Of a stretch of 64,000 nucleotides of DNA, positions 3,873-60,106 are shown piece after piece. The notes under the pieces are model-generated. The model had not been told where the DNA came from, did no database searches, and saw only the letters and a list, made by a program, of their open reading frames with translations. The stretch is taken from NCBI GenBank assembly GCA_003612485.1, contig RAZA01000011.1, forward strand, positions 62,001 through 126,000, given 5' to 3'. Position 1 is the stretch's first letter. Each line of letters begins with the position of its first letter. The DNA comes from a bacterium D16-50. Its GTDB lineage: Bacteria > Bacillota > Clostridia > Lachnospirales > Lachnospiraceae. Both the position numbers and the translations under genes were made by a program.

Positions 3873-5558
3873 ATGGGCAAAGGAACAAAGGCGCTGGCAA
3901 GGGGAGGATCGGTGAAGAGCGATAAGACGATGGTGAGAAAAGAGAGGCTGGCGGGGGCGATTTGTTCAAGAAGGACTTTGTATGTACTGTGTTTCATGGC
4001 ACTGAATCTTATTGAGTTTCTTCGTGCCAGCCAAACGGGCGACATTTGGCAAGTGGCCGTAAACTGCACGGGATTTGTGGTCATGATAATGATCGCCAGC
4101 GCGTATCCGCTGAAGGAGTTTTGTACGATACCCAACGGTATTTACACGGTGGCGTGTGTGGCAGTTATGGCAGCCGTATATTTTCATTGGCAGCAGCATG
4201 TGGGTGAATATCTTCTATGGCAAGTCGAGACGGCCATTATCAACATCTGGTGGATCGGTATCATAGTGAAACATTTGTTCAAAAAGATAGTGGTGGATAA
4301 GACGATGGGCTTTCGGCCGGGTGTGCTGGGATGGCTGTGGATTGCCATGAGCATGTTGATGATCGCATCGGTCAGCCAGCGGCTGTGGCCGCTGTGGTAT
4401 CTGCTGATGTTCGGCGCTTTCTATCTTACAAAATACCGAGCGGAGGATCGGAAGGTGCTGTGGGACGGAATGATCAATGGCACGCTGATTTCTTTTTTCT
4501 GTATCCAGATCTATGCGTATGGGTTTCGGCCTTATGATGAGGTGCGGTATCAGGGAGCCTATGCGAACTGCAATACCATGGCGCTGTACTATTTAATTAT
4601 CTACGTGATATGTCTATATAAGCTCCATATTCTGGAGCTGAGGAAGGCTCATTGGGGCCGAAAGCTCTTTTATCTGGTTGGAGCAGGCGGAATGCTGTCT
4701 TTCCAGATATTTACCATGGGAAGGACTGCATGGGCAGGGGCAGTCGTTGTCACTATTTTGTATGGAATTCTGGTAATAAAGAATCTGTGGGGTAAGAAAT
4801 GGCATCAAGTGCTATATAGGGGAGTGGGGCTGGTTGTGGCATTGGCAGTGACTTTTCTGCCTGTATTTTATTCGATACGATGGCTGCCTACTATATTGCA
4901 TCATCCTATTTGGTATGATGGAGAGTATTACGAAGGAAAGGTTCATTCCTTTGATCCGGCAGATTCCGAGAAGTATATTGAGCTTGAGGAGTTTCTGGAA
5001 GTGTTGTTAGGAAGGATTGCCGGCACGTTGAAGATTTTCGGAAAGCTGGATCCGCTTATGCTCAAGGCTTACGCTGCCGATGATGAAATGCGGGTGATTG
5101 AGCCCATAGATGTCCCATGGACAGATGATCAGGGGATTGAGTCAAGGCTGGCAATTTACAAGGCGTATCTTGAAGATATGACGTGGTATGGAAATACACC
5201 AGATAAGGGATTTTATAAGTTGGGAGATACAGGATACCATTCTTGGCATGCTCAGAATGTCTGGATTCAGATTGGGTATTATTTTGGAATACCGGCGGGT
5301 ATACTATTGGTGGCTTTGACAATCGTGATGCTGTGGCATCACGGGAAGAACTTGAAAAAGGGGAAAGAGAATCCCTATGCCATTATTCCGTTTTTTGTCT
5401 GTGTTCTGTTCACAGTGTATGGCGTGACGGAGGTGGTCTGGTATCCGGGGCAGCTGATCATGCTTTTGATCTTCTTTGTGCAGCATCCTCAGCTGGGAGA
5501 TGGAGATGAGGCGGAAATGCTTGCGGATCAAGGAGGGGCTGCGGCAACCACAGAGTAG
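3873..5558 (+). CDS. O-antigen ligase / polymerase family membrane protein
   Basis: 561 residues with roughly a dozen hydrophobic segments and one long extracytoplasmic loop (residues about 330-450). Features of the O-antigen ligase/Wzy family include GRTAWAGA at the start of a membrane helix after mid-protein, and a late WHAQNVWIQIGYYFGIP stretch that matches the usual His-containing loop leading into a helix. Such proteins join lipid-linked repeat units, or transfer the finished glycan, at the outer face of the membrane. A second start, GTG 3912, has GGGGAGG just upstream and would remove a basic, non-hydrophobic N-terminus. The gene opens module A, but a 330-base gap with a leader element separates it from the rest. 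A further Wzy-like protein (14971-16440) serves the same module, so this one may be the ligase rather than the polymerase. Confidence 0.78.
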   Translation: MGKGTKALARGGSVKSDKTMVRKERLAGAICSRRTLYVLCFMALNLIEFLRASQTGDIWQVAVNCTGFVVMIMIASAYPLKEFCTIPNGIYTVACVAVMAAVYFHWQQHVGEYLLWQVETAIINIWWIGIIVKHLFKKIVVDKTMGFRPGVLGWLWIAMSMLMIASVSQRLWPLWYLLMFGAFYLTKYRAEDRKVLWDGMINGTLISFFCIQIYAYGFRPYDEVRYQGAYANCNTMALYYLIIYVICLYKLHILELRKAHWGRKLFYLVGAGGMLSFQIFTMGRTAWAGAVVVTILYGILVIKNLWGKKWHQVLYRGVGLVVALAVTFLPVFYSIRWLPTILHHPIWYDGEYYEGKVHSFDPADSEKYIELEEFLEVLLGRIAGTLKIFGKLDPLMLKAYAADDEMRVIEPIDVPWTDDQGIESRLAIYKAYLEDMTWYGNTPDKGFYKLGDTGYHSWHAQNVWIQIGYYFGIPAGILLVALTIVMLWHHGKNLKKGKENPYAIIPFFVCVLFTVYGVTEVVWYPGQLIMLLIFFVQHPQLGDGDEAEMLADQGGAAATTE

Positions 5559-5888: not shown

Positions 5889-7607
5889 ATGAAGAGACCG
5901 AATTTTAAAAAAGCTATGGGCATAGCAGGGATCGTTGTCGGCGTGACCGCCATGATATGTATAGCATATAACAAGGCTGAGAAAAGATGCTTCAAAAATG
6001 CTGCTGGAGAAAACAAAAAGCCCAAAACGACCATATACGAAAAGTATGTGAAACGGATACTGGATATACTTATTGCTTTGTTCGGAATTATAATCGCAGC
6101 TCCAATACTTTTCATCCAAGGGATTATTATATTCATTGATGACCCTGGTTCTATCGTATTTTCCCAAAAAAGAATCGGCATCCATAAAACATATTTCAAG
6201 ATACACAAAGCAAGGACAATGCGTTTGGATACACCCGACATTCCGACACATGAGCTGAAGGAGCCGGACAAGTATCTTCTGCGCAGCGGAAGGTTTCTCC
6301 GCAGGCATAGCTTAGATGAGCTCTTCCAGCTTTTTGATATTTTGAGAGGCTCAATGAGCGTGGTGGGACCTCGCCCCGCACTATGGAATCAAGATGACCT
6401 GATTGCCGAAAGGGATGCGTACGGTGCCAACGATATCAAGCCGGGCCTCACGGGCTGGGCTCAGATCAACGGAAGGGACGAGCTGACGATTTCGGACAAG
6501 GCCCGGCTGGACGGAGTTTATACCCGCGAATTAAAAAAGAGCAGCTTGACGGGCTTTGTCATGGACTGCAGATGTCTATGGGGAACTGCAGCTTCTGTGT
6601 TAAAGGCGGAAGGAATTGCGGAAGGCGGTATCAGTAAACCGACCAGAGGAATGGGCATGAGAAATAAAATAGACATAGAAAAAGCCGCCTGCGAAAAGAG
6701 GCTGTTGGGAAATACAGGAATAGGAATGACTGTGCTGGGATTCGGATGTGCCAGCGTCTGGGGAAAGCGGCTTATATCGGACGATGAAGCAACAATGCTT
6801 TTTGAGAGGGCCTATGAACTGGGCATTCGATACTTTGATACGGGCTATAGCTACGGCATTGCCGAGGAAAGAATTGGAAACATTTTAAAAAAATCAACAA
6901 TTGTCGATAGGGATGAAATCATCATATCTTCAAAGTTTGGCACCAAGCTCGTCAACGGCAAATACATTCATGACTGGTCCCCTCAATGGATGCGAAGCAG
7001 TGTGGAGATCAGCTTAAGCAGAATGGGAATTTCCTATCTTGATCTGTTGATGTGTCATGGGCCTCAGATAGCGGATATGACAGAAACGTTTTTAGATGCC
7101 ATGCGCAGCTTGAAAAAAGATGGGCTTGTAAAAGCTATTGGAATCAATACTTTTGATACCGAAGTGATTGCGTATGTAAGGGACACAAAATGCTTTGATT
7201 TTGTGATGCTTGATTACAATATCATGAGACAAGATAGAGAAAAAATAATCCAAGAGCTTTACGAAGGTGGAATTGGTGTCATCGCAGGCGCGCCGTTGGC
7301 AGAATCTCTCTATTCAAACCGAATCTTCAAAGTGAAGCATTTAAAAGATATCTGGTATCTGGCAAGGGCCGTGGTCAATCATAGGGACAAGCTGGCCCAG
7401 AGAAGAGACTTCAGCTTCATCAATAAAGTCCCTGACATGTCAGGGACTCAGGCCGCATTGCGATATGTGCTGGACAACAAATGCATCACTTCAGCCGTAT
7501 TCGGAACAACCACACTATCGCACTTGGAAGAAAATGTGGGTGCTCTGGACAAAAGCATCCCGCAGGATGTGCTGCAGAAAATAAAAGCTCAAGGACGCAG
7601 ACAATGA
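5889..7607 (+). CDS. Monotopic phosphoglycosyl transferase fused to an aldo/keto reductase
   Basis: 572 residues in one frame. Residues 9-28 form an N-terminal membrane anchor. Residues about 45-250 are a bacterial sugar transferase (WcaJ/PglC type), with the reentrant hydrophobic helix after KRILDI, the catalytic Asp-Glu in SLDELFQLFDILRG, VVGPRP and KPGLTGWAQINGR. This domain transfers a sugar-1-phosphate from a UDP-sugar to undecaprenyl phosphate at the inner membrane face. After a linker of about 25 residues, a complete aldo/keto reductase fills 255-572, with tetrad D317, Y322 (DTGYSYG), K349 and H390. ATG 5889 is chosen because the N-terminus then matches the next protein's anchor in register; ATG 5829 is possible. 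In-frame ATGs at 6651 and 6657 after AGAGGA could also give a free reductase. It is coupled to the next gene by ATGA. The reductase may act on the sugar being loaded; this is inference. Confidence 0.85.
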   Translation: MKRPNFKKAMGIAGIVVGVTAMICIAYNKAEKRCFKNAAGENKKPKTTIYEKYVKRILDILIALFGIIIAAPILFIQGIIIFIDDPGSIVFSQKRIGIHKTYFKIHKARTMRLDTPDIPTHELKEPDKYLLRSGRFLRRHSLDELFQLFDILRGSMSVVGPRPALWNQDDLIAERDAYGANDIKPGLTGWAQINGRDELTISDKARLDGVYTRELKKSSLTGFVMDCRCLWGTAASVLKAEGIAEGGISKPTRGMGMRNKIDIEKAACEKRLLGNTGIGMTVLGFGCASVWGKRLISDDEATMLFERAYELGIRYFDTGYSYGIAEERIGNILKKSTIVDRDEIIISSKFGTKLVNGKYIHDWSPQWMRSSVEISLSRMGISYLDLLMCHGPQIADMTETFLDAMRSLKKDGLVKAIGINTFDTEVIAYVRDTKCFDFVMLDYNIMRQDREKIIQELYEGGIGVIAGAPLAESLYSNRIFKVKHLKDIWYLARAVVNHRDKLAQRRDFSFINKVPDMSGTQAALRYVLDNKCITSAVFGTTTLSHLEENVGALDKSIPQDVLQKIKAQGRRQ

Positions 7608-8935
7608 ATATCAAGAAGATCATGAAGACAGCAGGAATCGCAGGCGCATGTGGGACGGCCGCCATAATGACATATATAGCTTACACATCCCCCAAAAAAA
7701 CTGCCCTGAGAAAAAACTGCGTTAAGAAAAAGATATTGGTAGTGTGTCAGTACTATCATCCGGAACCTTTCCGGATAAAGGACATCTGCGAAGAGTTGGT
7801 TCGTAGGGGGCATGAAGTGCAAGTGGTCACCGGATATCCCAATTACCCGGAGGGACAGCTCTATGACGGATACGGCAAAGGCAAGAGGATCGATGAGATC
7901 ATCAACGGAGTAAAGGTTCATCGTTGCTACACCATTCCCCGGCAGACGGGAATCCTCAATCGTTTACTCAATTATTATAGCTATGCGTTTTCTGCTTCGT
8001 CCTATGTCCTTGGCAGCAAGTGCAGGGCATCCGATGGCACGAATTTTGACGAGGTATTCTGTAACCAGCTGTCGCCGGTTATGATGACGGTTCCGGCTAT
8101 TGTCTATAAAAAAAGATACGGAGTTCCTATTGTGATGTACTGCCTCGATTTGTGGCCGGAAAGCCTGATTGTCGGCGGTATTAAAAGAGACTCTTTTATC
8201 TATAAACATTTTTACCGGGTCAGCAAGAGAATATATGGGCAGATGGATAGGATCTTGGTTACAAGCCGAATGTTTCAGGATTATTTGTCAAAAAACTTCA
8301 GGATAGAAAATGAAAGGATTGAGTACCTGCCGCAATACGCGGAAGACATTTTCGAGCCATTGGCTCACGAAAGAGTGGACGGGATATTTCACTTCATGCT
8401 GGCAGGAAATATAGGAACCGCTCAAAGCATCGAAACTGTCTTAGGTGCAGCAGAGCGACTACAGCATGAGCCTATCAAATTCCACATCATCGGCGGGGGA
8501 ACTGAACTGAAGAGACTCAAAAAACTCAAAAAGGAAAAGGGATTGCATAATGTGGTGTTCTATGGCAGGCGTCCTCTGAGCGATATGCCCGGGTTCTATG
8601 AAATGGCAGATGCAATGCTCGTCACCTTGCTGGCAGATCCTGCCTTAAGAGCGACACTTCCGGGAAAGGTTCAGAGCTATATGGCTGCAGGAAAGCCCAT
8701 AATCGGGGCCGCAGATGGGGAAATAGCATCCGTCATTAAAGAAGCTAGATGCGGATTCTGCGGAGGGGCGAAAGATGATGCTGCCCTTGCAGAAAATATT
8801 ATGAGATTTGTTCACGCAGACAATAAGCCTGAAATGGGAATAAATGCAAGACGCTTCTATGAGGCCAACTTTGAAAAAGGTATCTTTATGGACAAACTTG
8901 AGCGGGAACTGGATCGGGCGCTGAGTATGGCTTGA
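7604..8935 (+). CDS. Membrane-anchored glycosyltransferase family 4 (WbuB-like)
   Basis: 443 residues; ATG 7604 overlaps the previous stop (ATGA). Residues 9-27 form a hydrophobic anchor, and the GT-B fold starts at residue about 43 with KILVVCQYYHPEPFRIKDIC. The C-terminal half carries LAGNIGTAQSIETVLGAA and the donor-site region KVQSYMAAGKPIIGAADGE. The catalytic part resembles the island B protein at 28959-30179, which has no anchor. WbuB-type enzymes add an amino sugar to the first lipid-linked sugar, which fits its position directly after the initiating transferase. The anchor GIAG...IAY (residues 11-27) aligns without gaps to the transferase fusion. The specific sugar is unknown. Confidence 0.85.
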   Translation: MNIKKIMKTAGIAGACGTAAIMTYIAYTSPKKTALRKNCVKKKILVVCQYYHPEPFRIKDICEELVRRGHEVQVVTGYPNYPEGQLYDGYGKGKRIDEIINGVKVHRCYTIPRQTGILNRLLNYYSYAFSASSYVLGSKCRASDGTNFDEVFCNQLSPVMMTVPAIVYKKRYGVPIVMYCLDLWPESLIVGGIKRDSFIYKHFYRVSKRIYGQMDRILVTSRMFQDYLSKNFRIENERIEYLPQYAEDIFEPLAHERVDGIFHFMLAGNIGTAQSIETVLGAAERLQHEPIKFHIIGGGTELKRLKKLKKEKGLHNVVFYGRRPLSDMPGFYEMADAMLVTLLADPALRATLPGKVQSYMAAGKPIIGAADGEIASVIKEARCGFCGGAKDDAALAENIMRFVHADNKPEMGINARRFYEANFEKGIFMDKLERELDRALSMA

Positions 8936-9938: not shown

Positions 9939-10949
9939 GTGGATCAGATTTATTGTACTTTGTTTGACTCAAACTATATGGACAAGGGGCTCGTATTGTA
10001 TGATTCCATGTGCGACTTTATAGGAGACTTCAAGTTATATATATTTGCGTTTGATGATCTATGCTACAGCATTCTGTCGAAAATGCACTTAAAAAACGCT
10101 ACACTTATTCCGCTGAAGGATCTGGAGACAGAAGAATTGTTAAAAGCAAAACAAGAGAGAACGCCTGCGGAGTACTGTTGGACATGTGCTGCATGGACAA
10201 TCAAGCATGTGCTGGATTGCTTTCAGGAAGATATCTGCACCTATATAGATGCGGACATGATGTTTTTTTCCTCACCGCAGCCTATTTTCGATGATCTGAG
10301 AGCAAAAGAATGCTCCATTATAATCGTTCCCCATCGGTTCAAGAACGAAAAAGAGGAAAGAAAGGCCCATGACACCGTAGGTTCCTACTGCGTAGAATTC
10401 AATACGTTCATAAACAATGAACAAGGACGAGCCGCCTTGGATTGGTGGGCAGACAGATGTCTGGAATGGTGCTTTTATGCGGTTCCGGGAACTACCGAAT
10501 GGTATGGAGATCAAAAATACCTGAATGTTTTCCCCCAAAAGTTCAAAGGAGTGTACATATGCGATCACATAGGCATAGGGCTTGCACCGTGGAACAATAT
10601 GCTTGTGGATTATGTCAAAGACTGCCCCCTGAAAATAAAGGAAAAGAAAAGCGGCAAGGTTTTTCCTTTGATCCTTTATCATTTTGAAAATGTGTCTTTT
10701 TTAAGCAGACACATTTTACATGTCTCTTCCGGGCTGAAGTCCAAAGAATTACATAAATGTATTTACGATGAATACGTAGACCGTATCTTGAAAAAACGCA
10801 GGCTTTTAAAAGAGGAGCATGGTTTTGCCGTGCCCAAGAATCGAAGAATTGTTACAAGGAATGTTTTCATGAAAATATACCAGACCTACATCGGCCCTCT
10901 AAAACGAATCAAGAGAATCTCGGACTTGTATTGGATCAAGGAGGAGTGA
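9939..10949 (+). CDS. Nucleotide-diphospho-sugar glycosyltransferase (GT-A fold, GT8-like)
   Basis: 336 residues starting at GTG 9939, with GAAAGGA about 8 bases upstream. The N-terminus (DQIYCTLFDSNYMDKGLVLYDSM) is typical of GT8-like enzymes that bind UDP-sugars. YIDADMMFFSSP carries the metal-binding DxD motif. A later GDQKYLNVFPQKF and DHIGIGLAPWN match the conserved acceptor-side region. It would transfer one sugar to the growing lipid-linked repeat on the cytoplasmic side. The next gene's start lies 2 bases after this stop, indicating one operon. Donor and linkage unknown. Confidence 0.75.
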   Translation: MDQIYCTLFDSNYMDKGLVLYDSMCDFIGDFKLYIFAFDDLCYSILSKMHLKNATLIPLKDLETEELLKAKQERTPAEYCWTCAAWTIKHVLDCFQEDICTYIDADMMFFSSPQPIFDDLRAKECSIIIVPHRFKNEKEERKAHDTVGSYCVEFNTFINNEQGRAALDWWADRCLEWCFYAVPGTTEWYGDQKYLNVFPQKFKGVYICDHIGIGLAPWNNMLVDYVKDCPLKIKEKKSGKVFPLILYHFENVSFLSRHILHVSSGLKSKELHKCIYDEYVDRILKKRRLLKEEHGFAVPKNRRIVTRNVFMKIYQTYIGPLKRIKRISDLYWIKEE

Positions 10950-10951
10950 TC

Positions 10952-12043
10952 ATGGTACCTATTAATTCTTTAATGCGCAGCTTTCGGCTTCATCAAGCCG
11001 AATATGAGGAAAAGGCATTGGAAGTCCTGCGCAGCGGGTGGTATGTCTTAGGGAAAGAAGTCGCACAGTTTGAAGAAGAATTCGCAGCATTGGCAGGCAC
11101 AAAATACAGTATCGGTGTTGACAACGGACTGAACGCCATCGTGTTAGGGATCAAGGCTCTGGGCATAGGCGAAGGTGATGAAGTGATCGTAGCGGCCAAC
11201 ACTTATATCGCCACCGTACTCGGCGTGTCGCTCAACAAAGCCACTCCCGTTTTTGTGGATGCCGATGAATACCATAATATAGATCCTGCCAAAATTGAAA
11301 GCGCAATTACAGAGAAGACAAAAGCCGTATTAGTCACCCACTTTTACGGACAAGCTTGTCAGATGAAGCAGATCAAAGAAATATGCGATGGAAACAATAT
11401 CTACTTACTTGAGGATTGTGCACAAGCACATATGGCGGAAAGTTATGGGAAACAAGTGGGTTCTTGGGGAATTATGGGTTTTTTCAGTTTCTATCCCACG
11501 AAAAATATGGGCGGTTTTGGCGATGGCGGAGCAATTACTACAGACTGTGAAGAACTGAGTACAAAGCTTAGAGCGCTTCGCAATTACGGCAGCACGCAGA
11601 GGTACAAAAATGATTACGAGGGTCACAACGCCAGACTGGATGAGCTTCAAGCCGGTTTGCTCAGGATCAAAATCAAACATGGGCAGGAAATCACAAATGA
11701 ACGAATACGGATTGCGGGCAGATATATGTCGGAAATCCATAATCCTAAGATAGAACTGCCCATGACCGCATCCAAGTGTACGCATGTATATCATCTTTTT
11801 GTCGTGCAGGCAGCTGACAGAGACCGTTTCAGAACCTATATGGCGGAACAAGGAGTTTCTACTGACGTACACTACCCTACTCCCCCATACCTTGCAAGGC
11901 CCTATGCTCCTCTGGGATATGGCAGGGAAGACTTTCCTATAACGAAGCGGCTGTATTCAAAGATCGTTTCAATTCCTATCTTCAACGGAATGACCGATGA
12001 GGAACAGCAAATTGTAATTGACGCGATAAATCATTATCAATAA
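10952..12043 (+). CDS. DegT/DnrJ/EryC1 aminotransferase, probable dTDP-3-keto-6-deoxyhexose 3-aminotransferase
   Basis: 363 residues; ATG 10952 follows a strong AAGGAGG. PLP-dependent sugar aminotransferase with SGWYVLGKEV near the N-terminus, the cofactor aspartate in LLEDCAQAH, and the Schiff-base lysine K184 in [10 protein letters not shown]. The next gene is an FdtA-type 3,4-ketoisomerase, which makes the 3-keto substrate. The pair therefore most likely yields dTDP-3-amino-3,6-dideoxy-galactose or -glucose (FdtB or QdtB role). Which epimer cannot be told from sequence. The dTDP-glucose genes rmlA and rmlB are not in the window. The assignment depends on the neighbour; fold and cofactor site are certain. 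Confidence 0.85.
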   Translation: MVPINSLMRSFRLHQAEYEEKALEVLRSGWYVLGKEVAQFEEEFAALAGTKYSIGVDNGLNAIVLGIKALGIGEGDEVIVAANTYIATVLGVSLNKATPVFVDADEYHNIDPAKIESAITEKTKAVLVTHFYGQACQMKQIKEICDGNNIYLLEDCAQAHMAESYGKQVGSWGIMGFFSFYPTKNMGGFGDGGAITTDCEELSTKLRALRNYGSTQRYKNDYEGHNARLDELQAGLLRIKIKHGQEITNERIRIAGRYMSEIHNPKIELPMTASKCTHVYHLFVVQAADRDRFRTYMAEQGVSTDVHYPTPPYLARPYAPLGYGREDFPITKRLYSKIVSIPIFNGMTDEEQQIVIDAINHYQ

Positions 12044-12057
12044 GGCGGAATGTTTAC

Positions 12058-12474
12058 ATGACATTAAAAGAGAAGTGTCCGATTGTGGAGTTCAAGGATT
12101 TCGGCGATGAAAGGGGCAGGCTTGTCGTAGTTGAAGGCAGACATTCCATACCCTTCGACATTGCCAGAGTGTTCTATATATACGGCTCGGATTCAACGGT
12201 AATAAGGGGACAGCACGCAAATCGCAATTCGGAATTCGTATTGATCAACGTAGCCGGAAAGAGCAAGGTTCGAGTCACAGACACACATGAAGAATTTGTG
12301 GCCAGACTCGACAAGCCCAGAACCGGAATCTATATTCCGGCAATGATCTGGAAGGAAATGTATGATTTCTCGGAAGACTCTGTTCTGCTGGTGCTTGCGA
12401 GCACGCATTACGATGGCGGAGAATACATAAGGGATTATGCCAAATATTCAGAGATTATGAAAAAGAAAAGCTGA
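12058..12474 (+). CDS. FdtA/QdtA-type dTDP-4-oxo-6-deoxy-glucose 3,4-ketoisomerase
   Basis: 138 residues, the usual length of this cupin family. Conserved stretches are DERGRLVVVEG, IPFDIARVFYIYG, RGQHANRNSEFVLINV and the tail MYDFSEDSVLLVLAS...YIRDY. The enzyme moves the keto group from C4 to C3 of dTDP-4-keto-6-deoxy-glucose. In characterised FdtA the active site has HAH; here it is HAN, so the second histidine is replaced by asparagine, as I recall for other WxcM-like members. It lies 14 bases after the aminotransferase, which supports an amino-sugar product. An N-acyltransferase for the amine is not adjacent. Confidence 0.85.
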   Translation: MTLKEKCPIVEFKDFGDERGRLVVVEGRHSIPFDIARVFYIYGSDSTVIRGQHANRNSEFVLINVAGKSKVRVTDTHEEFVARLDKPRTGIYIPAMIWKEMYDFSEDSVLLVLASTHYDGGEYIRDYAKYSEIMKKKS

Positions 12475-25763: not shown

Positions 25764-26450
25764 ATGTCGTATCTGATAGTCGTGGCGCACCCGGACGACG
25801 AGGTGCTGGGTGCGGGCGCCACCATGCACAAGCTGTCCCAGACCGGCAGGGAGGTGGGCGTCTGCGTCCTCTCGGGGCAGGCGGAGGCGAGGGCGGGCCG
25901 CCCCGCCGACAGCGAGCTGGCGGCGGACATGGGCTCATGCCTGAGGCTGCTGGGGGTGTCCCGCACCTATGCGGGCGGCTTCCCCAACATCATGCTGAAC
26001 ACGGTGCCCCATCTGGAGCTGGTCAGGTTCATAGAGGCGGCCATGGAGGACTCGCGGGCGGAGGTGGTCATCACCCACCACCCGGCGGACCTGAACAACG
26101 ACCACCTCCACACCTCGCTGGCCTGTCAGGAGGCGGCGCGGCTCTTCCAGCGCCGGCCCTCCCGGACGCCCCTGAGGGAGCTGCTGTACATGGAGGTGCC
26201 CTCGGCCACGGAATGGTCCCTGAACGCGGGGATGGCCGGCTTCAGGCCGGACACCTTCGTGGAGGTGGGGGCGGAGGGCGTGGAGAGGAAGCTGGAGGCG
26301 CTCGCCCGGTATAGGGGGGTGATGCGGGGCTACCCGCACCCCCGCAGCAGGGAGGGCATCTTCGGGCTGGCGGCGTATAGGGGGATGCAGTCCGGCTGCC
26401 TGTACGCCGAGGCCTTCCAGACGGCCCTGAGGCGGGTCACGGCGGTATGA
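25764..26450 (+). CDS. PIG-L family sugar N-deacetylase
   Basis: 228 residues, typical LmbE/PIG-L length. VVAHPDDEVLGAG at the N-terminus gives the zinc ligands His and Asp and the catalytic Asp. THHPADLNNDHLHTS supplies the second conserved His region. These enzymes remove acetyl from GlcNAc-type groups on sugars or lipid-linked sugars. AGGGGG precedes ATG 25764. It opens a very GC-rich operon unlike its surroundings. The next gene is a formyltransferase, so this enzyme may expose the amine that is then formylated. Cytoplasmic; no signal peptide. Confidence 0.85.
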   Translation: MSYLIVVAHPDDEVLGAGATMHKLSQTGREVGVCVLSGQAEARAGRPADSELAADMGSCLRLLGVSRTYAGGFPNIMLNTVPHLELVRFIEAAMEDSRAEVVITHHPADLNNDHLHTSLACQEAARLFQRRPSRTPLRELLYMEVPSATEWSLNAGMAGFRPDTFVEVGAEGVERKLEALARYRGVMRGYPHPRSREGIFGLAAYRGMQSGCLYAEAFQTALRRVTAV

Positions 26451-26543
26451 GCGCCCCGGGAGGGCGCGCTGCACCGGGGCGCCGCCGCGGAACATACTCT
26501 TGGACGGGCCCGCCGGGGCGGGCGCCGGACGGAAGGAGGGCAC

Positions 26544-27386
26544 ATGAACATCGCATTCACCACCTGCGTGCGGCTGGGCAGGAGCTGCATAGAAGCGATC
26601 TACGACCTGGGGGGCAGGCTGGAGCTCATGGTCACGCTGAGGGACGACCTCGCCAGAGGGAAGTCGGGGCGGGCCTATCTGGACGACCTGGCCCGGGAGC
26701 ACGGCGTGCCCCTGCTGAAGGTGGGCCACATCAACGACCCGGAGGTGCCGGAGGCGCTGGCCCGCCACCACATCGACTGGCTGTTCATCATAGGCTGGTC
26801 CCAGATAGCCGGGGAGGCGGTCCTGGAGGCCCCCGCCCGGGGGTGCATCGGCATGCACCCCACGCTGCTCCCCGAGGGCAGGGGGCGGGCGTCGGTCCCC
26901 TGGGCCATCCTGAAGGGGCTGGACAGGACCGGCGTGACCATGTTCCGGCTGGACTCCGGGGTGGACACGGGGGACATCATCGCCCAGGGGGAGATCCCCA
27001 TGGACCCCCGGACCGTGACGGCGACGGAGCTGTACGCCCGGGTGGAGGAGATGCACGTCCGGCTGGTCCGGGAGAACTGGGGGGCCATCGTGGGCGGCTC
27101 CGTGCGCCTGGTGAGGCAGGACGGGACGCGGGCTACGGTGTGGCCGGGGAGGCGGCCGGAGGACGGGGAGCTGCTCCCGTCCATGACCATGGAGGAGGCG
27201 GACCGGATGGTGCGGGCGGTGACGCGCCCGTACCCGGGGGCCTTCTACCTCCAGGGGGGCAGGAAGGTCACGGTATGGCGCGCGGCGGTGTCCAGAGACC
27301 ATGCGGAGGGGGCCCTGCGGCTGGCCGACGGCTTCCTGGTCCCTCTGGAATACGAGGCCCGGGACACGGGGGGTGCCGGGGCATGA
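26544..27386 (+). CDS. Sugar N-formyltransferase-like protein
   Basis: 280 residues from ATG 26544 with AAGGAGGG upstream. Formyltransferase fold: GCIGMHPTLLPEGRGRASVPWA carries the conserved His and the HPxLLP loop, and RLDSGVDTGDIIAQ carries the catalytic Asp. In methionyl-tRNA formyltransferase the loop begins Asn-x-His; here the Asn position is Gly (IGMH). A C-terminal domain follows (PYPGAFYLQGGRKVTVWRA), as in sugar formyltransferases and ArnA. It would use N10-formyl-tetrahydrofolate on an amino sugar. Position after the deacetylase supports sugar over tRNA. Its stop overlaps the next start (ATGA). Confidence 0.8.
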   Translation: MNIAFTTCVRLGRSCIEAIYDLGGRLELMVTLRDDLARGKSGRAYLDDLAREHGVPLLKVGHINDPEVPEALARHHIDWLFIIGWSQIAGEAVLEAPARGCIGMHPTLLPEGRGRASVPWAILKGLDRTGVTMFRLDSGVDTGDIIAQGEIPMDPRTVTATELYARVEEMHVRLVRENWGAIVGGSVRLVRQDGTRATVWPGRRPEDGELLPSMTMEEADRMVRAVTRPYPGAFYLQGGRKVTVWRAAVSRDHAEGALRLADGFLVPLEYEARDTGGAGA

Positions 27387-28033
27387 GCGGCAGGGGCATC
27401 CAGCCGGCAGCCAAGAGGCTCTTCGACGTCGCCGCATCCCTGCTGCTGCTGGCGCTGTGCCTCCCCCTGCTTCTGGCGGCGGCCGCGCTGGTGAAGCTGA
27501 CGTCCCCCGGACCCGTGCTCTTCCAGCAGGAGCGCCCCGGCCTCGGCGGCAGGGTGTTCCGCATCTACAAGCTCCGGACCATGAGGACCGGCTCCGAGAG
27601 GATGGTGAAGGGGCAGGAGGTGGGCCGGGATGACCCGAGGGTCACTCCAGCAGGGCGTCTCCTGCGCAGGACCAAGGTGGACGAGCTACCCCAGCTGCTC
27701 AACGTCCTGAAGGGGGACATGAGCCTGGTGGGGCCCAGGCCGGAGCGGCTGGCCTCGCTGGAGGACTACGACGCAGAGACCGCCCGCCGGCTGGACATGC
27801 TGCCGGGCATGACCGGGCTGGCCCAGGTCAGCGGGAACATCTGCCTGCCCCTGGAGGAGCGGTACAGGCTGGACGTCTACTACGTGGACCACTTCAGCCT
27901 CAGTCTGGACATAAGGATCCTACTGCGGACCGTGGGCGTGGTGCTGCTGGGGGAGGGCAGGTACGCAGGGCGACCTTTGGTGCATACCGGCGAAGGAGCC
28001 GGCCAGAGCGGTGCCCGCCACCCGGGCCCGTAA
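27383..28033 (+). CDS. Initiating sugar transferase (monotopic phosphoglycosyl transferase)
   Basis: 216 residues starting at ATG 27383 inside the ATGA overlap. The N-terminal reentrant helix follows AAKRLFDVAASLLLL. The signature KVDELPQLLNVLKGDMSLVGPRPE holds the catalytic Asp-Glu pair, and the end has MTGLAQVSG and RYRLDVYYVDHFSLSLDI. It loads a sugar phosphate on undecaprenyl phosphate, so the island can start its own glycan or initiate for module C, which has no such gene. Unlike the module A enzyme it is standalone, of the short PglC type. The reading frame is also open far upstream, but only because GC-rich DNA lacks stops. Confidence 0.9.
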   Translation: MSGRGIQPAAKRLFDVAASLLLLALCLPLLLAAAALVKLTSPGPVLFQQERPGLGGRVFRIYKLRTMRTGSERMVKGQEVGRDDPRVTPAGRLLRRTKVDELPQLLNVLKGDMSLVGPRPERLASLEDYDAETARRLDMLPGMTGLAQVSGNICLPLEERYRLDVYYVDHFSLSLDIRILLRTVGVVLLGEGRYAGRPLVHTGEGAGQSGARHPGP

Positions 28034-28066
28034 GCGAACTTACAACGTGCATAGGGAGGCAATGAC

Positions 28067-28957
28067 ATGAAGAGAGTTCTGATCACCGGGGCAGGCAGCT
28101 ACATCGGGACCTCCTTCGGGAGATGGGCCGCGGAGAGGTGTCCCGGCATCTCCACCGAGACTCTGGACATGAGGGGCGAGGCATGGAGGCAAACGGACTT
28201 CCGTGGATATGACTCGGTCTTCCATGTGGCAGGCATCGCCCATGCCGATGTGGGGAAGGCCTCCCGGGAGGATAGGCGCCTCTACTATCGGGTCAACACA
28301 GACCTGGCCATAGAGTGCGCCTCGAAGGCAAAGGCGGAAGGCGTGGGGCAGTTCATCTTCATGAGCAGCATTATCGTGTACGGCGAGAGCGCCGGGATCG
28401 GCAGACGGAAGGTGATCACAGAGGACACCCCCCTCTCCCCGGCAAATTTCTACGGGGACAGCAAGGCGAGGGCGGAGGAAGGGCTCCGGGGGCTGCGCAG
28501 CGACAGCTTCAGGGTCGTTGTCCTCCGCCCGCCCATGATCTACGGCCCCGGCTCGAAGGGGAACTACCCGATCTTGTCCATGCTGGCCCGGAAGCTCCCT
28601 GCCTTCCCCGACATACGCAACGAGCGGAGCATGTTGTACGTGGGGAACCTATGCAGGTTCGTCAGCCTAATGATCCTGAACAGCGAGGACGGTGTCTTCT
28701 TCCCTCAGAACGCGGAATACGTGGAGACCAGCCGGATGGTGCGGGCCATAGCCGGGGCCCACGGCAGGAGGATCCTCCTCACCCGGGCCCTCAACCTGCC
28801 CATGAAGGCGCTGGGGAGGCTGGGGGGGAAGGCCGGGGGGATGGTGGACAAGGCCTTCGGGAGCATCGTGTACGAGAAGGGCATGAGCGCATATAGGGAG
28901 GACTATCAGGAGTATGGCTTCGAGGAGTCCGTGCGGCTGACCGAGGGAGGGGCATAG
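28067..28957 (+). CDS. NAD-dependent epimerase/dehydratase (SDR)
   Basis: 296 residues; AGGGAGG lies about 7 bases before ATG 28067. Extended SDR: VLITGAGSYIGTSF binds NAD, FMSSIIVYGES carries the active-site serine region, and NFYGDSKARAE carries the Tyr-x3-Lys pair. Closest in pattern to UDP-glucose/UDP-GlcNAc 4-epimerase-like or 4-reductase enzymes that sit beside WbuB-like transferases. It would modify the sugar used by the adjoining transferase. Substrate not defined. GC-rich like the rest of the island. Confidence 0.82.
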   Translation: MKRVLITGAGSYIGTSFGRWAAERCPGISTETLDMRGEAWRQTDFRGYDSVFHVAGIAHADVGKASREDRRLYYRVNTDLAIECASKAKAEGVGQFIFMSSIIVYGESAGIGRRKVITEDTPLSPANFYGDSKARAEEGLRGLRSDSFRVVVLRPPMIYGPGSKGNYPILSMLARKLPAFPDIRNERSMLYVGNLCRFVSLMILNSEDGVFFPQNAEYVETSRMVRAIAGAHGRRILLTRALNLPMKALGRLGGKAGGMVDKAFGSIVYEKGMSAYREDYQEYGFEESVRLTEGGA

Positions 28958-28958
28958 G

Positions 28959-30179
28959 ATGGAACAGCACATACTGGTGGTCTCCCAGTACTTCCACCCC
29001 GAGGAGTTCCGCATCAACGACATCTGCAGGGAGTGGGTACAGAGGGGGCATAGGGTCACGGTGGTGACGGGGATCCCCAATTACCCTCAGGGCCGTTTCT
29101 ACAAGGGGTACGGCCTATTCCGGGGACGGCGGGAGGAATACGGCGGCGTCAATGTCATGAGGCTGCCCATCGTCCCCAGAGGCAGGGGGGCAGCGATGCT
29201 GGCGCTGAACTACCTGTCGTTCGTGGCCTCAGGCTTCCTCTGGAAATCCTTCACCGGGCTAAAGGCGGACAAGGTCTTCATCTTCGAGGTCTCCCCTCTG
29301 ACACAAGCCCTGGTGGGGGTCTGGTACGCAAAGAGGCGGGGGGTGCCCTGCGCCATATACGTGCAGGACCTATGGCCGGAGAATCTGAAGGCAGTGGGGG
29401 GGATCCACAATAGGCACATCCTCGGCGCGGTGGACAAGATGGCGGACTACATCTATAGGAACTGCAGCAGGATCCTCGCCACCTCCCCCAGCTTTGTCAG
29501 TAGGCTCGAGGAGCGCCGCAGCGCGTGGGAGGCCGGCAGGAGCAAGGTGGCCTACTGGCCCCAGTACGCAGAGGGCTTCTACCGGCCTGCGGAGAGGATG
29601 CCCCTGCCCGACATGCCATGCAGCGGGCGGTTCAGGGTCGCCTTCACCGGGAACATCGGGTACTCTCAGGGGCTGGACATCCTGCCCAGAGCCGCGGCCC
29701 TGCTCAGGCAGGCGGGAGTCCCATGCGAGTTTGTGGTCATAGGGGATGGACGGTATAGGGAGGGGCTGCTGGGGGAGATCGAAAACCGCGGCGTCGGGGA
29801 GATGTTCCGCCTGCCGGGGCGGAAACGGCCGGAGGAGATACCCGGCTATCTGGCCTGGTGCGACGCGGCATTCATATCCTTCGCGGAGAGCCCCCTCTTC
29901 GGCATGACGATTCCCGCGAAGCTGCAGTCCTACATGGCCTGCGGCATGCCCATTCTGGCGGCGGCCACCGGGGAGACCCGGCGCATCGTCCGGGAGGCAC
30001 GGTGCGGGGCGTGCTGCGACGTAGGGGACGGGCAGGCGCTGGCCGGGATCATCACGGAGATGGCCCATGCGGATCCGGAGCGGCTGTCCGACATGTCCCG
30101 GAACGCGCTGGGCTACTGCAGGGAGCACTTCGGGAAGGACATGCTGATGGCACGGATGGAAGAGATGCTGGCGGAATGA
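28959..30179 (+). CDS. Glycosyltransferase family 4, WbuB-like
   Basis: 406 residues, starting 1 base after the previous stop. The N-terminus ILVVSQYFHPEEFRINDIC and VVTGIPNYPQGRFYKGYG closely match the module A protein at 7604-8935. The donor domain has FTGNIGYSQGLDILPRAA and KLQSYMACGMPILAAATGE. WbuB-type enzymes add the second sugar, often an N-acetyl-fucosamine-type residue, onto the initiating sugar, in line with the preceding transferase and epimerase. It lacks the N-terminal membrane anchor of its paralogue. It is the last gene of the GC-rich island. Confidence 0.87.
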   Translation: MEQHILVVSQYFHPEEFRINDICREWVQRGHRVTVVTGIPNYPQGRFYKGYGLFRGRREEYGGVNVMRLPIVPRGRGAAMLALNYLSFVASGFLWKSFTGLKADKVFIFEVSPLTQALVGVWYAKRRGVPCAIYVQDLWPENLKAVGGIHNRHILGAVDKMADYIYRNCSRILATSPSFVSRLEERRSAWEAGRSKVAYWPQYAEGFYRPAERMPLPDMPCSGRFRVAFTGNIGYSQGLDILPRAAALLRQAGVPCEFVVIGDGRYREGLLGEIENRGVGEMFRLPGRKRPEEIPGYLAWCDAAFISFAESPLFGMTIPAKLQSYMACGMPILAAATGETRRIVREARCGACCDVGDGQALAGIITEMAHADPERLSDMSRNALGYCREHFGKDMLMARMEEMLAE

Positions 30180-45160: not shown

Positions 45161-46336
45161 ATGAAAAAAACAATTATTAAAAACGGAGAAGAACTGCAAA
45201 TTTGTTCAAAATGCATTTATGATGAAACCGTTTCGGGAATCTCCTTCGACGAAGATGGGGTTTGCAATTATTGCCATACAATGGAAAGGTTCCAGGAGGA
45301 GTATAAGACAGGAACTCCGGAAGGAGAAAAGAAATTATCAGATATTATTGCTCAAATAAAAAAAGACGGAAAAGGCAAAAAATATGATTGCGTCATTGGT
45401 GTGTCCGGAGGGACTGATTCCAGCTATTTGATTGCGAAACTAGTCGAATGGGGCCTGCGGCCTTTAGCGGTTCATTATGACAATACATGGAATACTGCAA
45501 TTGCAACGGAAAATATCAAGAAGGTCTTGGACAAATTAAATGTGGATCTTTATACATACGTAATCGACAACAAAGAAGCCGATGATATTTTTCTGTCGTT
45601 TATCAAAGCAGGAGTTCCTGAGCTGGATGCATCGACAGATCTTGCCATAGCAGAATTAATGTATCGGGCAGCGGCAAAATATAAGGTCAAATATATATTT
45701 GAGGGTCATTCCTATATTACGGAAGGAATCGCTCCTCTGAGCAATATGTATTTCGACGGTAAATATATTCAATCAATCCATAAAAAGTTCGGGAAGCTTC
45801 CTATGCAGACGTATCCGCTGATGACCTTTGGCCATTTTATGAAGTGGACTGTCTTCAAGCAAATCAAGAAAATAAGGCCATTCTGGTATATTAATTATTC
45901 CAAAGAAGAGGCCAGGGAATACTTAGAGAAGGAGTTTGGCTGGCAATATTACGGCGGACACCATCTTGAAAACAGAATAGTAGCTATGCAGCATAGCTAC
46001 TATAACTATCGTAAATATGGAATAGATAACAGGAATTTAAGCTTGGCGGCAGGAGTGCGGTCAGGGCTGCTGGATAGGGAAGCGGCCATTGATGAGTTTT
46101 ATAATCATGAGCCCTATTTGGAGGATGGGCTTTTGGACTACTTTAAAGAACGCATGCATTTAACAGACGAAGAGTTCGAGAGTTTGATGAAAACACCGAA
46201 TAAAAGATACACTGAATATCTGACCTACAAGAAAAGATTTCAAAGGATGAGGCCATTGTTCTACATTTTGGCAAAGGCTAATCTAGTTCCCATGAGCTTT
46301 TATGTAAAATATACCGCAAAGGACAAGGTAGAATAA
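45161..46336 (+). CDS. wbpG: WbpG-like N-acetyl sugar amidotransferase
   Basis: 391 residues; AGGGG lies 7 bases before the ATG. The N-terminus has zinc-ribbon cysteines (CSKCIYDETV, then VCNYCHTM). The PP-loop ATP-pyrophosphatase motif is CVIGVSGGTDSSYL. FEGHSYITEGIAPL and YGGHHLENRIVA are family-specific. It works with the adjoining HisH and HisF homologues, which supply ammonia from glutamine, to turn an N-acetyl group into an acetamidino group, as in P. aeruginosa O5 LPS. The likely target is the 3-acetamido group made by the WbpB/E/D trio. The three amidination genes are 1-11 bases apart. Confidence 0.9.
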   Translation: MKKTIIKNGEELQICSKCIYDETVSGISFDEDGVCNYCHTMERFQEEYKTGTPEGEKKLSDIIAQIKKDGKGKKYDCVIGVSGGTDSSYLIAKLVEWGLRPLAVHYDNTWNTAIATENIKKVLDKLNVDLYTYVIDNKEADDIFLSFIKAGVPELDASTDLAIAELMYRAAAKYKVKYIFEGHSYITEGIAPLSNMYFDGKYIQSIHKKFGKLPMQTYPLMTFGHFMKWTVFKQIKKIRPFWYINYSKEEAREYLEKEFGWQYYGGHHLENRIVAMQHSYYNYRKYGIDNRNLSLAAGVRSGLLDREAAIDEFYNHEPYLEDGLLDYFKERMHLTDEEFESLMKTPNKRYTEYLTYKKRFQRMRPLFYILAKANLVPMSFYVKYTAKDKVE

Positions 46337-46337
46337 G

Positions 46338-46949
46338 ATGCTTGTTATTGTAGACTATGGTTTGGGCAACTTGGGATCCGTGTACAACATGATTAAAAAG
46401 GTAGGCGGAAGTTCCATCATATCAAGCGATCCAAAAGTGATTTCTCAGGCCGACAAGGTGATTTTGCCTGGTGTAGGGAAATTTGATGCCGGAATGACGA
46501 AAATTGAAGAACATGGTCTTTTGGATGTCTTAAACAAAAAGGCAAATGAGGACAAAATACCCGTTTTGGGAATCTGCCTTGGCATGCAGCTTTTGACGGA
46601 AAGGAGCGAGGAGGGCAATAAGAAAGGACTGGGATGGATCAAGGCCGATACAGTGCGTTTTGATTTTCCCAAAGAATCCGGGATAAAAATACCCCATATG
46701 GGATGGAACTATGTGGAAAAGGCAGCGAATACACCTTTGCTTTCCGGCTTTGACGAGACGTTTAGATATTATTTTGTGCACTCATATTATGTAAAGCCTA
46801 AATTACCAGAGAATGTATTATTGAAGACAAATTATGGAATTGAATTTGCATCAGCCATATATAAGGATAATGTTTTCGGAGTACAATTTCATCCTGAAAA
46901 AAGCCATAAATTCGGGAAAAGATTGCTAACTAATTTTTTGGCGTTATAG
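46338..46949 (+). CDS. hisH: HisH-type glutaminase of the acetamidino-sugar system
   Basis: 203 residues, class I glutamine amidotransferase. VIVDYGLGNLGSVYNMIKK at the N-terminus, nucleophile cysteine in GICLGMQLL, and catalytic His and Glu in FGVQFHPEKSHKFG. It releases ammonia from glutamine. It lies between WbpG and the HisF homologue, with no other histidine genes nearby, so the role is amidination and not imidazole-glycerol-phosphate synthesis. Confidence 0.9.
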   Translation: MLVIVDYGLGNLGSVYNMIKKVGGSSIISSDPKVISQADKVILPGVGKFDAGMTKIEEHGLLDVLNKKANEDKIPVLGICLGMQLLTERSEEGNKKGLGWIKADTVRFDFPKESGIKIPHMGWNYVEKAANTPLLSGFDETFRYYFVHSYYVKPKLPENVLLKTNYGIEFASAIYKDNVFGVQFHPEKSHKFGKRLLTNFLAL

Positions 46950-46960
46950 GACAAGGAAAA

Positions 46961-47707
46961 ATGATAAAGACAAGAATCATACCATGCTTATTGCTACGTG
47001 AGGGGGCATTGGTAAAAACAGTTAAATTTGGGAAATTTCAATATGTAGGTGACCCCTTAAATACCTGCAGAATCTTCAACGAATTGGAAGTCGATGAAAT
47101 GATGATTCTGGATATCATGGCCAGCAGGCATAATAGGGAACCTGACTATGACTTGCTGCAAAAATTGACCAGCGAGTGCTTTATGCCCTTGTCCTATGGG
47201 GGCGGGATAAAAAGCATTATGCAGGCAAAGAAAATCTTTTCAATGGGATTTGAAAAAATCGTAATTAACAGCAGCTTATTCAACGGCCTTAATTTGCTCA
47301 AAGAAATAGCAGATGTATATGGCTCACAAAGCCTGATCGTTTCTATCGACATTAAAAAGAATCTATTCGGAAAATATGATATATACTCCAACTCCGGTTC
47401 TAAAAAAGAAGAGGCAAAACTGCTGGATTGGGTCGAAAAGGTAGAATCTGCCGGGGCAGGAGAAATTCTGTTGACCAATATTTCACGGGAAGGAACATGG
47501 AGCGGATTTGATACGGAAATCATAAAAAAAGTATCCGAGAAAACAATGATACCCGTAGTGGCCCACGGCGGTGCAGGATGTGAAAAGGATATCAAAGAAG
47601 CTGTTCGGTATGGCGGAGCTTCTGCTGTTGCATTAGGAAGCATGGTGGTCTTTCAAAACAAGGATATGGGAGTTTTGATTAACTATAACAACAATTATGA
47701 TATATAA
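46961..47707 (+). CDS. hisF: HisF-like ammonia-channel subunit of the acetamidino-sugar system
   Basis: 248 residues, (beta/alpha)8 barrel: RIIPCLLLREGALVKTVKF, FMPLSYGGGIKSI, SLIVSIDIKKN and VVAHGGAGCEKDI. The catalytic Asp11 of true HisF (IIxCLDV) is Leu here (IIPCLLL), while the later Asp in SIDIKK remains. Loss of Asp11 fits the divergent HisF proteins of amidination systems, which channel ammonia but need not make imidazole glycerol phosphate. It partners with HisH (46338-46949) and WbpG. Confidence 0.88.
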   Translation: MIKTRIIPCLLLREGALVKTVKFGKFQYVGDPLNTCRIFNELEVDEMMILDIMASRHNREPDYDLLQKLTSECFMPLSYGGGIKSIMQAKKIFSMGFEKIVINSSLFNGLNLLKEIADVYGSQSLIVSIDIKKNLFGKYDIYSNSGSKKEEAKLLDWVEKVESAGAGEILLTNISREGTWSGFDTEIIKKVSEKTMIPVVAHGGAGCEKDIKEAVRYGGASAVALGSMVVFQNKDMGVLINYNNNYDI

Positions 47708-57526: not shown

Positions 57527-58983
57527 TTTACTCTACCTGTATAATATTTTGATTCTTCACTCCGGTAAACAATATCCTCCGGCTTATACCCGTATTCGTT
57601 TATAAGAATCTCCGTCAGATTCGCAAGACATACGCCGCCCTGACACCTTCCGGTCATGCATCTCGTTCTGTTCTTGATCCCTGCAATCGTAACCGTTCCC
57701 AGCGGATTTTCAATTGCGTCTTTGATTTCTTTTTTGGTTACGCCCTCACACCGACACACTACCTCACCGTATTCCGGGCATTGATTAATAAGACGCTCTT
57801 TTTCCGAATCCGGCAAATCCCTAAATCGCATGGGCGCTTTTCTTTTCCCGATAAAGGTTCCGGTTTCCGTTAACGGAATCCATTGATTGACAAGGCTGCA
57901 CACATGCCTTGCTATGGGAATAGATGAGGTTAATCCCGGAGACTCGATGCCGATCAAATTGATAAGATGTGTTCCTTCTTCAGCGCAAATAGTAAAGTCC
58001 CTGAATCCTCCTTCTGCTTCCGGCGCTTGTTTGGAGCGGATTCCCGTGTACTGTCCAATGACATATTTTCTCTTTATGTCCGGTATGAGCTGACTGGCTT
58101 CATCAAGAAGCCTATCTATTACATCCCTAGTGCTTTCATAATCATCGCAATCATCAATGTATTCGGCGCTTGGGCCGAGAATCACAGTTCCGTCGCTTGT
58201 GGGAGTGACGTGGATGCCCAAGCCGCCGATTCCCTTTCTCGGAGCCGGATACACCGGAATATCGATCAGATCTGATATACGCTTGTCCAAAATCAGATAC
58301 TGCCCGCGACAAGGGTATATATGATATTTATTTATTCCAAACAGCTGGGAAACTTTGTCCGAATATAACCCGGCGCTATTGATAACGTATCTCGCGGTTA
58401 TGGTCTCTTTTAGACCGTTATTAAAGAAAAGCTTATAGCTATCGCCTTCCTTGTTTACGCCGGTCAGTTCATGGTTAAAAAGGAATTCCACCCCATTTTC
58501 ATGGGCATTTTCAGCAAGGGCAATTGTATACAGAAAGGGGTTGATAATTGCCGTGTTGGAAGAGAACATTGCGCCTATACCCTTGACATAGGGGGCCTTT
58601 CTATCCAATTCCTCTGCAGTTAGCATAAAAAGACCCTTGCAGCCGTTTCTCTCTCCTTGGCGATAGAGGCCCTGCAGAGTCTCAAGGTCGTTTTTATCAA
58701 AGGCCACAAGCAATTTTCCGGTTTTGAAATAGGGAACATCCAATTCTTGACAATATTCTTCAAAATGGAGATTTCCTTCTACACAGAATTTTGCCATCAG
58801 ACTGTCTGGTTTGTTGTTAAAGCCTGCATGTACTACGGCAGAATTCCTTCCGCTGGTTCCGCAAGCCACATCGGGTTCTTTTTCAGCAACAGCAACTTTT
58901 AAGCGGTATTTTGAAAGTTCTCTGGCAATGGCGCAGCCCACTGCGCCACCGCCAATAATTACGATATCGTAAGTATTATCCAT
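57523..58983 (-). CDS. GlpA-like FAD-dependent oxidoreductase with C-terminal [2Fe-2S] domain
   Basis: 486 residues. IVIIGGGAVGCAIARELSK binds FAD; GTSGRNSAVVHAGFNNKP and NLIGIESPGLTSSIPIA are DAO-family signatures. The C-terminus is a BFD-like iron-sulfur domain (VVCRCEGVTKKE, then RCMTGRCQGGVC). This is the architecture of anaerobic GlpA-type dehydrogenases in Firmicutes, which pass electrons to the GlpB-like partner encoded next. Substrate could be glycerol-3-phosphate, L-2-hydroxyglutarate or a related 2-hydroxy acid; sequence alone does not decide. Its ATG shares one base with the SDR stop (TAATG), so it is coupled to the sugar genes upstream. Confidence 0.83.
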   Translation of the reverse strand: MDNTYDIVIIGGGAVGCAIARELSKYRLKVAVAEKEPDVACGTSGRNSAVVHAGFNNKPDSLMAKFCVEGNLHFEEYCQELDVPYFKTGKLLVAFDKNDLETLQGLYRQGERNGCKGLFMLTAEELDRKAPYVKGIGAMFSSNTAIINPFLYTIALAENAHENGVEFLFNHELTGVNKEGDSYKLFFNNGLKETITARYVINSAGLYSDKVSQLFGINKYHIYPCRGQYLILDKRISDLIDIPVYPAPRKGIGGLGIHVTPTSDGTVILGPSAEYIDDCDDYESTRDVIDRLLDEASQLIPDIKRKYVIGQYTGIRSKQAPEAEGGFRDFTICAEEGTHLINLIGIESPGLTSSIPIARHVCSLVNQWIPLTETGTFIGKRKAPMRFRDLPDSEKERLINQCPEYGEVVCRCEGVTKKEIKDAIENPLGTVTIAGIKNRTRCMTGRCQGGVCLANLTEILINEYGYKPEDIVYRSEESKYYTGRVK

Positions 58984-60026: not shown

Positions 60027-60106
60027 GTTCGTTCCTCCTTATATGAACATAATAGTATGAATATAGCCCTTTGCTCTGCAATGGCTTATTTCTGGATAAA
60101 CATATT

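Follow-up and report, generated by a model that had tools for sequence, protein, structure and literature searches.

A rare fusion of an initiating phosphoglycosyl transferase with an aldo/keto reductase, probably a 4-ketoreductase for the loaded sugar

Introduction

CapD-type enzymes are 4,6-dehydratases whose 4-keto product next undergoes reduction or amination, CapN is a short-chain dehydrogenase/reductase (SDR), and the Asp-Glu chemistry of phosphosugar transfer is known for the monotopic phosphoglycosyl transferase (PGT) family. In Staphylococcus aureus, CapD, the 4-reductase CapN and the PGT CapM yield lipid-linked N-acetylfucosamine (FucNAc) in vitro (PMC6441080), and bifunctional PGTs, the Bi-PGTs, constitute an established class (PMC10942596, PMC10653937), in line with an earlier note on the present DNA, which had described PGT fusions to sugar-modifying enzymes as a known class. 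We analysed a stretch of 64,000 nucleotides, hereafter the window, from the Lachnospiraceae bacterium D16-50, in which one gene joins a PGT to an aldo/keto reductase (AKR). No earlier description of a PGT-AKR fusion was found in the literature searched, which did not include the principal overview of PGT architectures (O'Toole 2021, PNAS). Judging from its sequence and genomic context, we consider it probable that the AKR is the 4-ketoreductase that converts the CapD product into UDP-FucNAc or UDP-N-acetylquinovosamine (UDP-QuiNAc), to be used by the PGT in the same chain; it would take the place of a CapN-type enzyme without being homologous to it.

Results

One frame joins a phosphoglycosyl transferase to an aldo/keto reductase

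The fusion is encoded by a single uninterrupted frame running from the ATG at 5889 to the stop ending at 7607. AACTTTGGGGATTTCATAAA stands just before this ATG, and an upstream in-frame ATG at 5829 constitutes an alternative start, giving 592 amino acids. The gene and its parts are:

5889..7607, + strand: PGT-AKR fusion protein, 572 amino acids, defined by open frame, Pfam matches and catalytic residues
5889..6032, + strand: N-terminal residues 1-48, a helix (probable membrane anchor) followed by a short linker, preceding the PGT domain and outside PF02397; low-confidence model helix at residues 6-31
6051..6605, + strand: monotopic PGT domain, PF02397, residues 55-239, with the D143-E144 pair
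6606..6734, + strand: linker between the Pfam domains, residues 240-282, holding an in-frame ATG at 6657 with AGAGGA upstream
6735..7589, + strand: AKR domain, PF00248, residues 283-567, with the tetrad D317, Y322, K349 and H390

The PF02397 match (158 bits, cut-off 27) is complete, covering profile positions 1-179 of 179, and the PF00248 match (150 bits, cut-off 24) is near-complete, covering positions 2-288 of 291. The catalytic Asp-Glu pair of monotopic PGTs is present as D143-E144, and the AKR tetrad is invariant in all nine aligned AKR rows, window included. The earlier note had seen one frame joining a PGT with its Asp-Glu pair to an AKR with a full tetrad; its tetrad numbering proved exact. 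By these features, PF00248 and a full tetrad in the same chain, the protein would be a bifunctional PGT, as would a second fusion described below.

The AlphaFold model of the fusion, built from 16 aligned rows, has a mean predicted local distance difference test score (pLDDT) of 79 and a predicted template modelling score of 0.55. It displays two folded domains whose relative placing is not fixed by the model, with pLDDT mostly above 84 per 10-residue block in the AKR, 59-92 in the PGT and below 50 in the linker (residues 240-258), and its low-confidence N-terminal helix is probably a membrane anchor. The C-terminal domain has the profile, the Asp-Tyr-Lys-His tetrad and the barrel fold of the AKR superfamily. 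Profile and fold thus separate it from CapN-type reductases, which have the SDR fold; the domain may function as CapN does, yet it lies outside that SDR group. All 50 matches listed by Foldseek for the AKR domain were of AKR type, some titled merely oxidoreductase, and the best solved relatives among the matches listed, by profile and Foldseek, were AKR11C1 (1ynp), L-galactose dehydrogenases and IolS.

Might the fusion be an artefact of assembly or sequencing? In favour of this, the AKR could have its own start at ATG 6657. However, Schaedlerella arabinosiphila DSM 106076 (locus L044), a named isolate, carries on a 6.3-Mb contig the same PGT-AKR architecture in a protein of 584 amino acids, with 61% AKR identity and 47% PGT identity to the window fusion, and composition is even on both sides of the joint (third-position G+C 0.51 in the PGT, 0.49 in the AKR). 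With a second fusion and an even composition, an assembly join is unlikely, and we regard an artefact of either kind as extremely improbable. The earlier note had held that homologues found always as two separate genes would speak against a true fusion; the fused homologue of S. arabinosiphila shows that they are not.

The slot after the PGT holds an SDR in related loci

The genes around the fusion that enter the comparison are:

contig C22 of the window's own genome (G000), 58618-60486, same strand as the fusion: own CapD, 7.4 kb upstream of the fusion
3873..5558, + strand: polymerase/ligase-like protein (Wzy_C 21.5 bits, below the cut-off of 31.7), upstream of the fusion
7604..8935, + strand: GT4 glycosyltransferase, WcaI-like below the NCBIfam cut-off, next gene, overlapping the fusion end by four bases
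10931..12474, + strand: DegT aminotransferase and FdtA-like genes of the fusion's cluster; locus L122 has the same pair downstream of PGT-SDR-GT4
28067..28957, + strand: extended SDR, PF01370, in a second block of the window, used as reference for the SDR that holds the AKR slot elsewhere

The own CapD matches PF02719 with 413 bits and has the TDKA and GGGGSIG motifs; the PseB and FnlA models match it below their cut-offs. Matches to the window PGT at E <= 1e-30 occur in 92 of 299 family genomes. We surveyed all 60 matches at E <= 9.5e-48 except the window itself, from 56 genomes and including the second PGT copy in the own genome, with flanks of about 5 kb per side where the contig allowed, some contigs being cut. 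At 34 of these 60 loci, an SDR homologous to the reference SDR lies on the same strand, either as a separate downstream gene (28) or fused to the PGT (6), and 25 of the 28 separate SDRs begin within 150 bases past the PGT end. In 25/60 loci, a count that includes cut contigs, a same-strand CapD precedes the PGT. None of the 60 loci carries the AKR within these flanks of about 5 kb and, reciprocally, the reference SDR is absent from all eight AKR loci outside the window (L043-L050), even at a loose threshold.

L122 has the gene order CapD-PGT-SDR-GT4-glycosyltransferase-DegT-FdtA: the SDR stands where the AKR would be, and the downstream genes are shared with the window (GT4 36%, glycosyltransferase 59%, DegT 49%, FdtA 73%). 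An SDR also follows the PGT of L108, the sister of the window PGT in the tree (99/92). PGT-SDR fusions occur in L074, L078, L092, L126, L127 and L115, the last with a GT4 added. This L115 protein is a triple fusion of 1025 amino acids, PGT-SDR-GT4, located downstream of CapD and holding consecutive pathway steps in one chain.

Overall, 15/60 related PGTs continue at the C-terminus for more than 150 amino acids, as an extension or a partner, namely the six SDR fusions and nine others. Among the latter, L087 matches GT4 by BLAST and L125 is GT4 by Pfam (as L029); by eye, the extensions of L093, L098, L100 and L101 resemble that of L125, and that of L096 resembles GT2. The extensions of L077 and L130 are alike, and that part of L130 has no Pfam match (as L034).

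Relatives of the AKR mostly lie close to a PGT

A scan of genome contigs requiring one of two exact peptides returned ten AKR relatives, eight close (52-76%) and two distant. The distant ones, L051 (34%) and L052 (29%), were left out of the counts and appear only as rows in the wider AKR alignment and tree. The close set thus comprises nine records, the window and L043-L050, in which L047-L049 correspond to the order-genome matches G469, G432 and G440, each counted once; these three are near-copies of one another (CapD 98-100%).

Two of the nine records are fusions (the window and L044) and the other seven are separate AKR proteins. In seven of the nine loci, three of them the near-copies, the AKR is either fused to a PGT or separated from one by no more than a single gene. 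In L043, a Lachnospiraceae metagenome-assembled genome, PGT, AKR and GT4 follow one another as three genes (AKR 75%, GT4 65%, PGT 59%). The order is CapD-AKR-PGT-GT4 in L046 and CapD-AKR-UGD-PGT in L047, L048 and L049. The homologue of the window GT4 comes after the AKR in L043 (65%) and after the PGT in L046 (51%). A gene of the CapD type lies in the same locus in five of the nine cases (window, L046-L049); L045 and L050 have no such gene within 6 kb. In the L043 genome, the end of the CapD contig encodes the same coiled-coil repeat that begins the PGT contig; since this repeat is common to both contig ends, CapD probably neighbours the PGT there as well. The repeat belongs to a tandem-repeat open reading frame (ORF) between CapD and PGT (L043 1-459, low end of L063), where the assembly seems broken.

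The AKR is scarce in the genomes sampled. At E <= 1e-60, only the own genome was returned among 397 family genomes and among 391 class genomes; at E <= 1e-35, 4 of 392 order genomes were returned, own genome included. The three samples overlap and at most five first-look candidates per genome were scored, and the family sample missed L043 and L044, so these counts are lower bounds. As neither of these Lachnospiraceae records was returned, the family sample probably lacks their species. The idea of an AKR widespread in the family was discarded, the own genome being the sole match among the 397 family genomes (a lower bound). No viral contig matched any of six exact peptide patterns of the AKR.

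Two separate fusions are the simpler history

In the AKR tree (9 rows), a single clade of the two fused AKRs is rejected by the approximately unbiased (AU) test (p 1.45e-06), and the tree that includes the distant rows L051 and L052 has no starred branch. In the PGT tree (67 rows), in which the bootstrap had not settled, the fused PGTs fall into different groups; here the AU test rejects neither one clade of fused PGTs (p 0.116) nor a grouping of the window with L043 (p 0.108). Because the AKR tree rejects a fused clade and the PGT tree splits the fused PGTs, two separate fusions are favoured as the simpler reading of these sequences, and one old fusion that was later split, which neither PGT test rejects, is less favoured.

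Shine-Dalgarno-like motifs stand at both joints, before the in-frame ATG 6657 of the window (AGAGGA) and before GTG 5965 of L044. Such motifs precede 6 of 42 in-frame starts in the window fusion, 4 of 43 in the L044 gene and 28 of 365 in other window genes, so that ATG 6657 may, though only suggestively, be a remnant of the start of a formerly separate AKR gene. If real, the motifs would be consistent with two genes merged through the loss of a stop, and a free AKR might still be produced.

Other features of the window

Between CapD and the polymerase-like gene lies a 950-amino-acid ORF (135-2987) with no Pfam match. The N-terminal membrane segments of the fusion (5889-6032) and of the next GT4 (7604-7738) are weakly alike (local score 43, reached by 0.0045 of full shuffles and by 0.022 of shuffles preserving the membrane segment); perhaps the two proteins share an N-terminal anchor. 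Among 2-kb steps of the window's first 40 kb, those at 26001-30000 have 64-71% G+C and the remaining ones 36-51%. This block carries LmbE-like and formyltransferase-like genes (both by eye), a PGT, the reference SDR and a GT4. This SDR has a counterpart of 93% identity on contig C11 of the window's genome (L132), and the block looks imported. Sugar amidotransferase-like and HisF-like genes were recognized by eye at 45161-47707, and again, together with a HisH-like gene, at 3580-7296 of L043.

Discussion

We propose that the fusion initiates a surface polysaccharide and acts as a bifunctional enzyme. The C-terminal AKR would use NADH or NADPH to reduce the 4-keto group, yielding UDP-FucNAc or UDP-QuiNAc, and the N-terminal PGT would use its Asp-Glu pair to transfer the phosphosugar, presumably of that UDP-sugar, to undecaprenyl phosphate, after which the GT4 of the next gene may add the second sugar. 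The AKR would thus replace the SDR that occupies this slot in more than half of the related PGT loci and that we read as a 4-ketoreductase of the CapN type, and the fusion would keep the keto sugar close to both its reductase and the loading enzyme at the membrane. Several lines of evidence make this role of the AKR probable: the own CapD, of a type that makes a 4-keto sugar, lies 7.4 kb upstream on the same strand; the slot after the PGT is taken by either of two differently folded oxidoreductases; L122 shares downstream genes with an SDR replacing the AKR, and the PGT of L108 is followed by an SDR; AKR and SDR are each joined to the C-terminus of one PGT family; and there are precedents in CapD-CapN-CapM (PMC6441080) and in Pdeg-Preq of Bacillus cereus (PMC4514872).

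Several observations weigh against this role. The own CapD is not adjacent to the fusion, a 456-amino-acid ORF with no Pfam match, the 950-amino-acid ORF and the polymerase-like gene lying between them, and the best CapD of L044 is about 1 Mb from its fusion. The gene after the L044 fusion is itself another extended SDR (PF01370), though one that does not resemble the reference SDR significantly (E 0.10 over 17 residues). The window genome also has reference-type SDRs (window 28067 and contig C11), in other blocks than the AKR, and neither SDR nor AKR was found in 26 of the 60 related PGT loci, some on cut contigs. The CapN type of the slot SDR is presumed from its family and place. Lastly, the AKR of L045 is near GT4 genes with no close PGT within 6 kb, and that of L050 has neither a PGT nor any matched polysaccharide gene within 6 kb. 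Hence the suggestion of the earlier note, in which one polypeptide both reduces and loads the sugar, is supported in part. It fits the CapD in five of nine loci, the PGT fused or near in seven of nine and the slot SDR in 34/60, and is weakened by L045 and L050; the proposed role is drawn from context, with FucNAc or QuiNAc as the expected product.

The order of the two steps could also be reversed: the PGT would first load the 4-keto sugar phosphate onto undecaprenyl phosphate, and the tethered AKR would reduce the lipid-linked sugar afterwards, a reading favoured by the attachment of the AKR to a membrane enzyme. In a Rhizobium glycan, QuiNAc comes first. There, the lipopolysaccharide of a wreQ mutant has 4-keto derivatives instead of QuiNAc, so that a keto sugar can enter a glycan unreduced (PMC4514872). 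By contrast, seven of the nine AKR records are separate proteins, CapN reduces the UDP-sugar prior to loading by CapM (PMC6441080), and Preq likewise acts on a UDP-sugar (PMC4514872); we therefore hold reduction after loading to be unlikely. A broader scenario, in which the AKR replaced an unrelated SDR in the UDP-FucNAc/QuiNAc pathway and joined PGTs of two lineages, and in which the fused form may reduce the lipid-linked sugar, making loading and reduction one membrane-held step in reversed order, has in our judgement a similarly small chance. Less likely again, the AKR would have a different carbonyl substrate, such as a free aldehyde or a dTDP-keto sugar from the DegT/FdtA branch, and its fusion to the PGT would reflect nothing more than gene proximity. 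The DegT and FdtA-like genes indeed lie about 3.3 to 4.9 kb downstream, the closest solved AKRs among the matches listed (AKR11C1, L-galactose dehydrogenases, IolS) are not known 4-ketoreductases, and the L050 surroundings agree with such a role. However, the AKR adjoins CapD in L046-L049, with no match to the window DegT or FdtA in the stretches examined, and in L122 the DegT and FdtA genes accompany the SDR, with no AKR present.

Taken together, the fusion is real and rare, and its proposed role is supported by context. If the AKR is the 4-ketoreductase, a key step in making amino-deoxy sugars would gain an unrelated enzyme fold, annotators could assign a function to a group of "aldo/keto reductases" encoded in polysaccharide loci, and one protein would be at hand for testing channelling between sugar making and loading. 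With 15 extended members in 60, the PGT family appears as a hub onto which later pathway enzymes were often joined.

Among known systems, Pdeg-Preq differs in that Preq is 33% identical to GDP-4-keto-6-deoxy-mannose 4-reductase, and the parts of its description covered mention neither an AKR nor a PGT fusion (PMC4514872). CapD-CapN-CapM likewise combines a dehydratase, a 4-reductase and a PGT, and the same order of steps is proposed for the window; in S. aureus, however, CapN and CapM are separate proteins, whereas the window reductase is an AKR (PMC6441080). The window fusion shares with the Bi-PGTs a PGT core with a functional domain at one terminus, N- or C-terminal in that class (PMC10942596), and differs from them by its partner, here an aldo/keto reductase. 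The six PGT-SDR fusions have the same PGT family, a C-terminal partner and an oxidoreductase in the slot, with a partner of a different fold.
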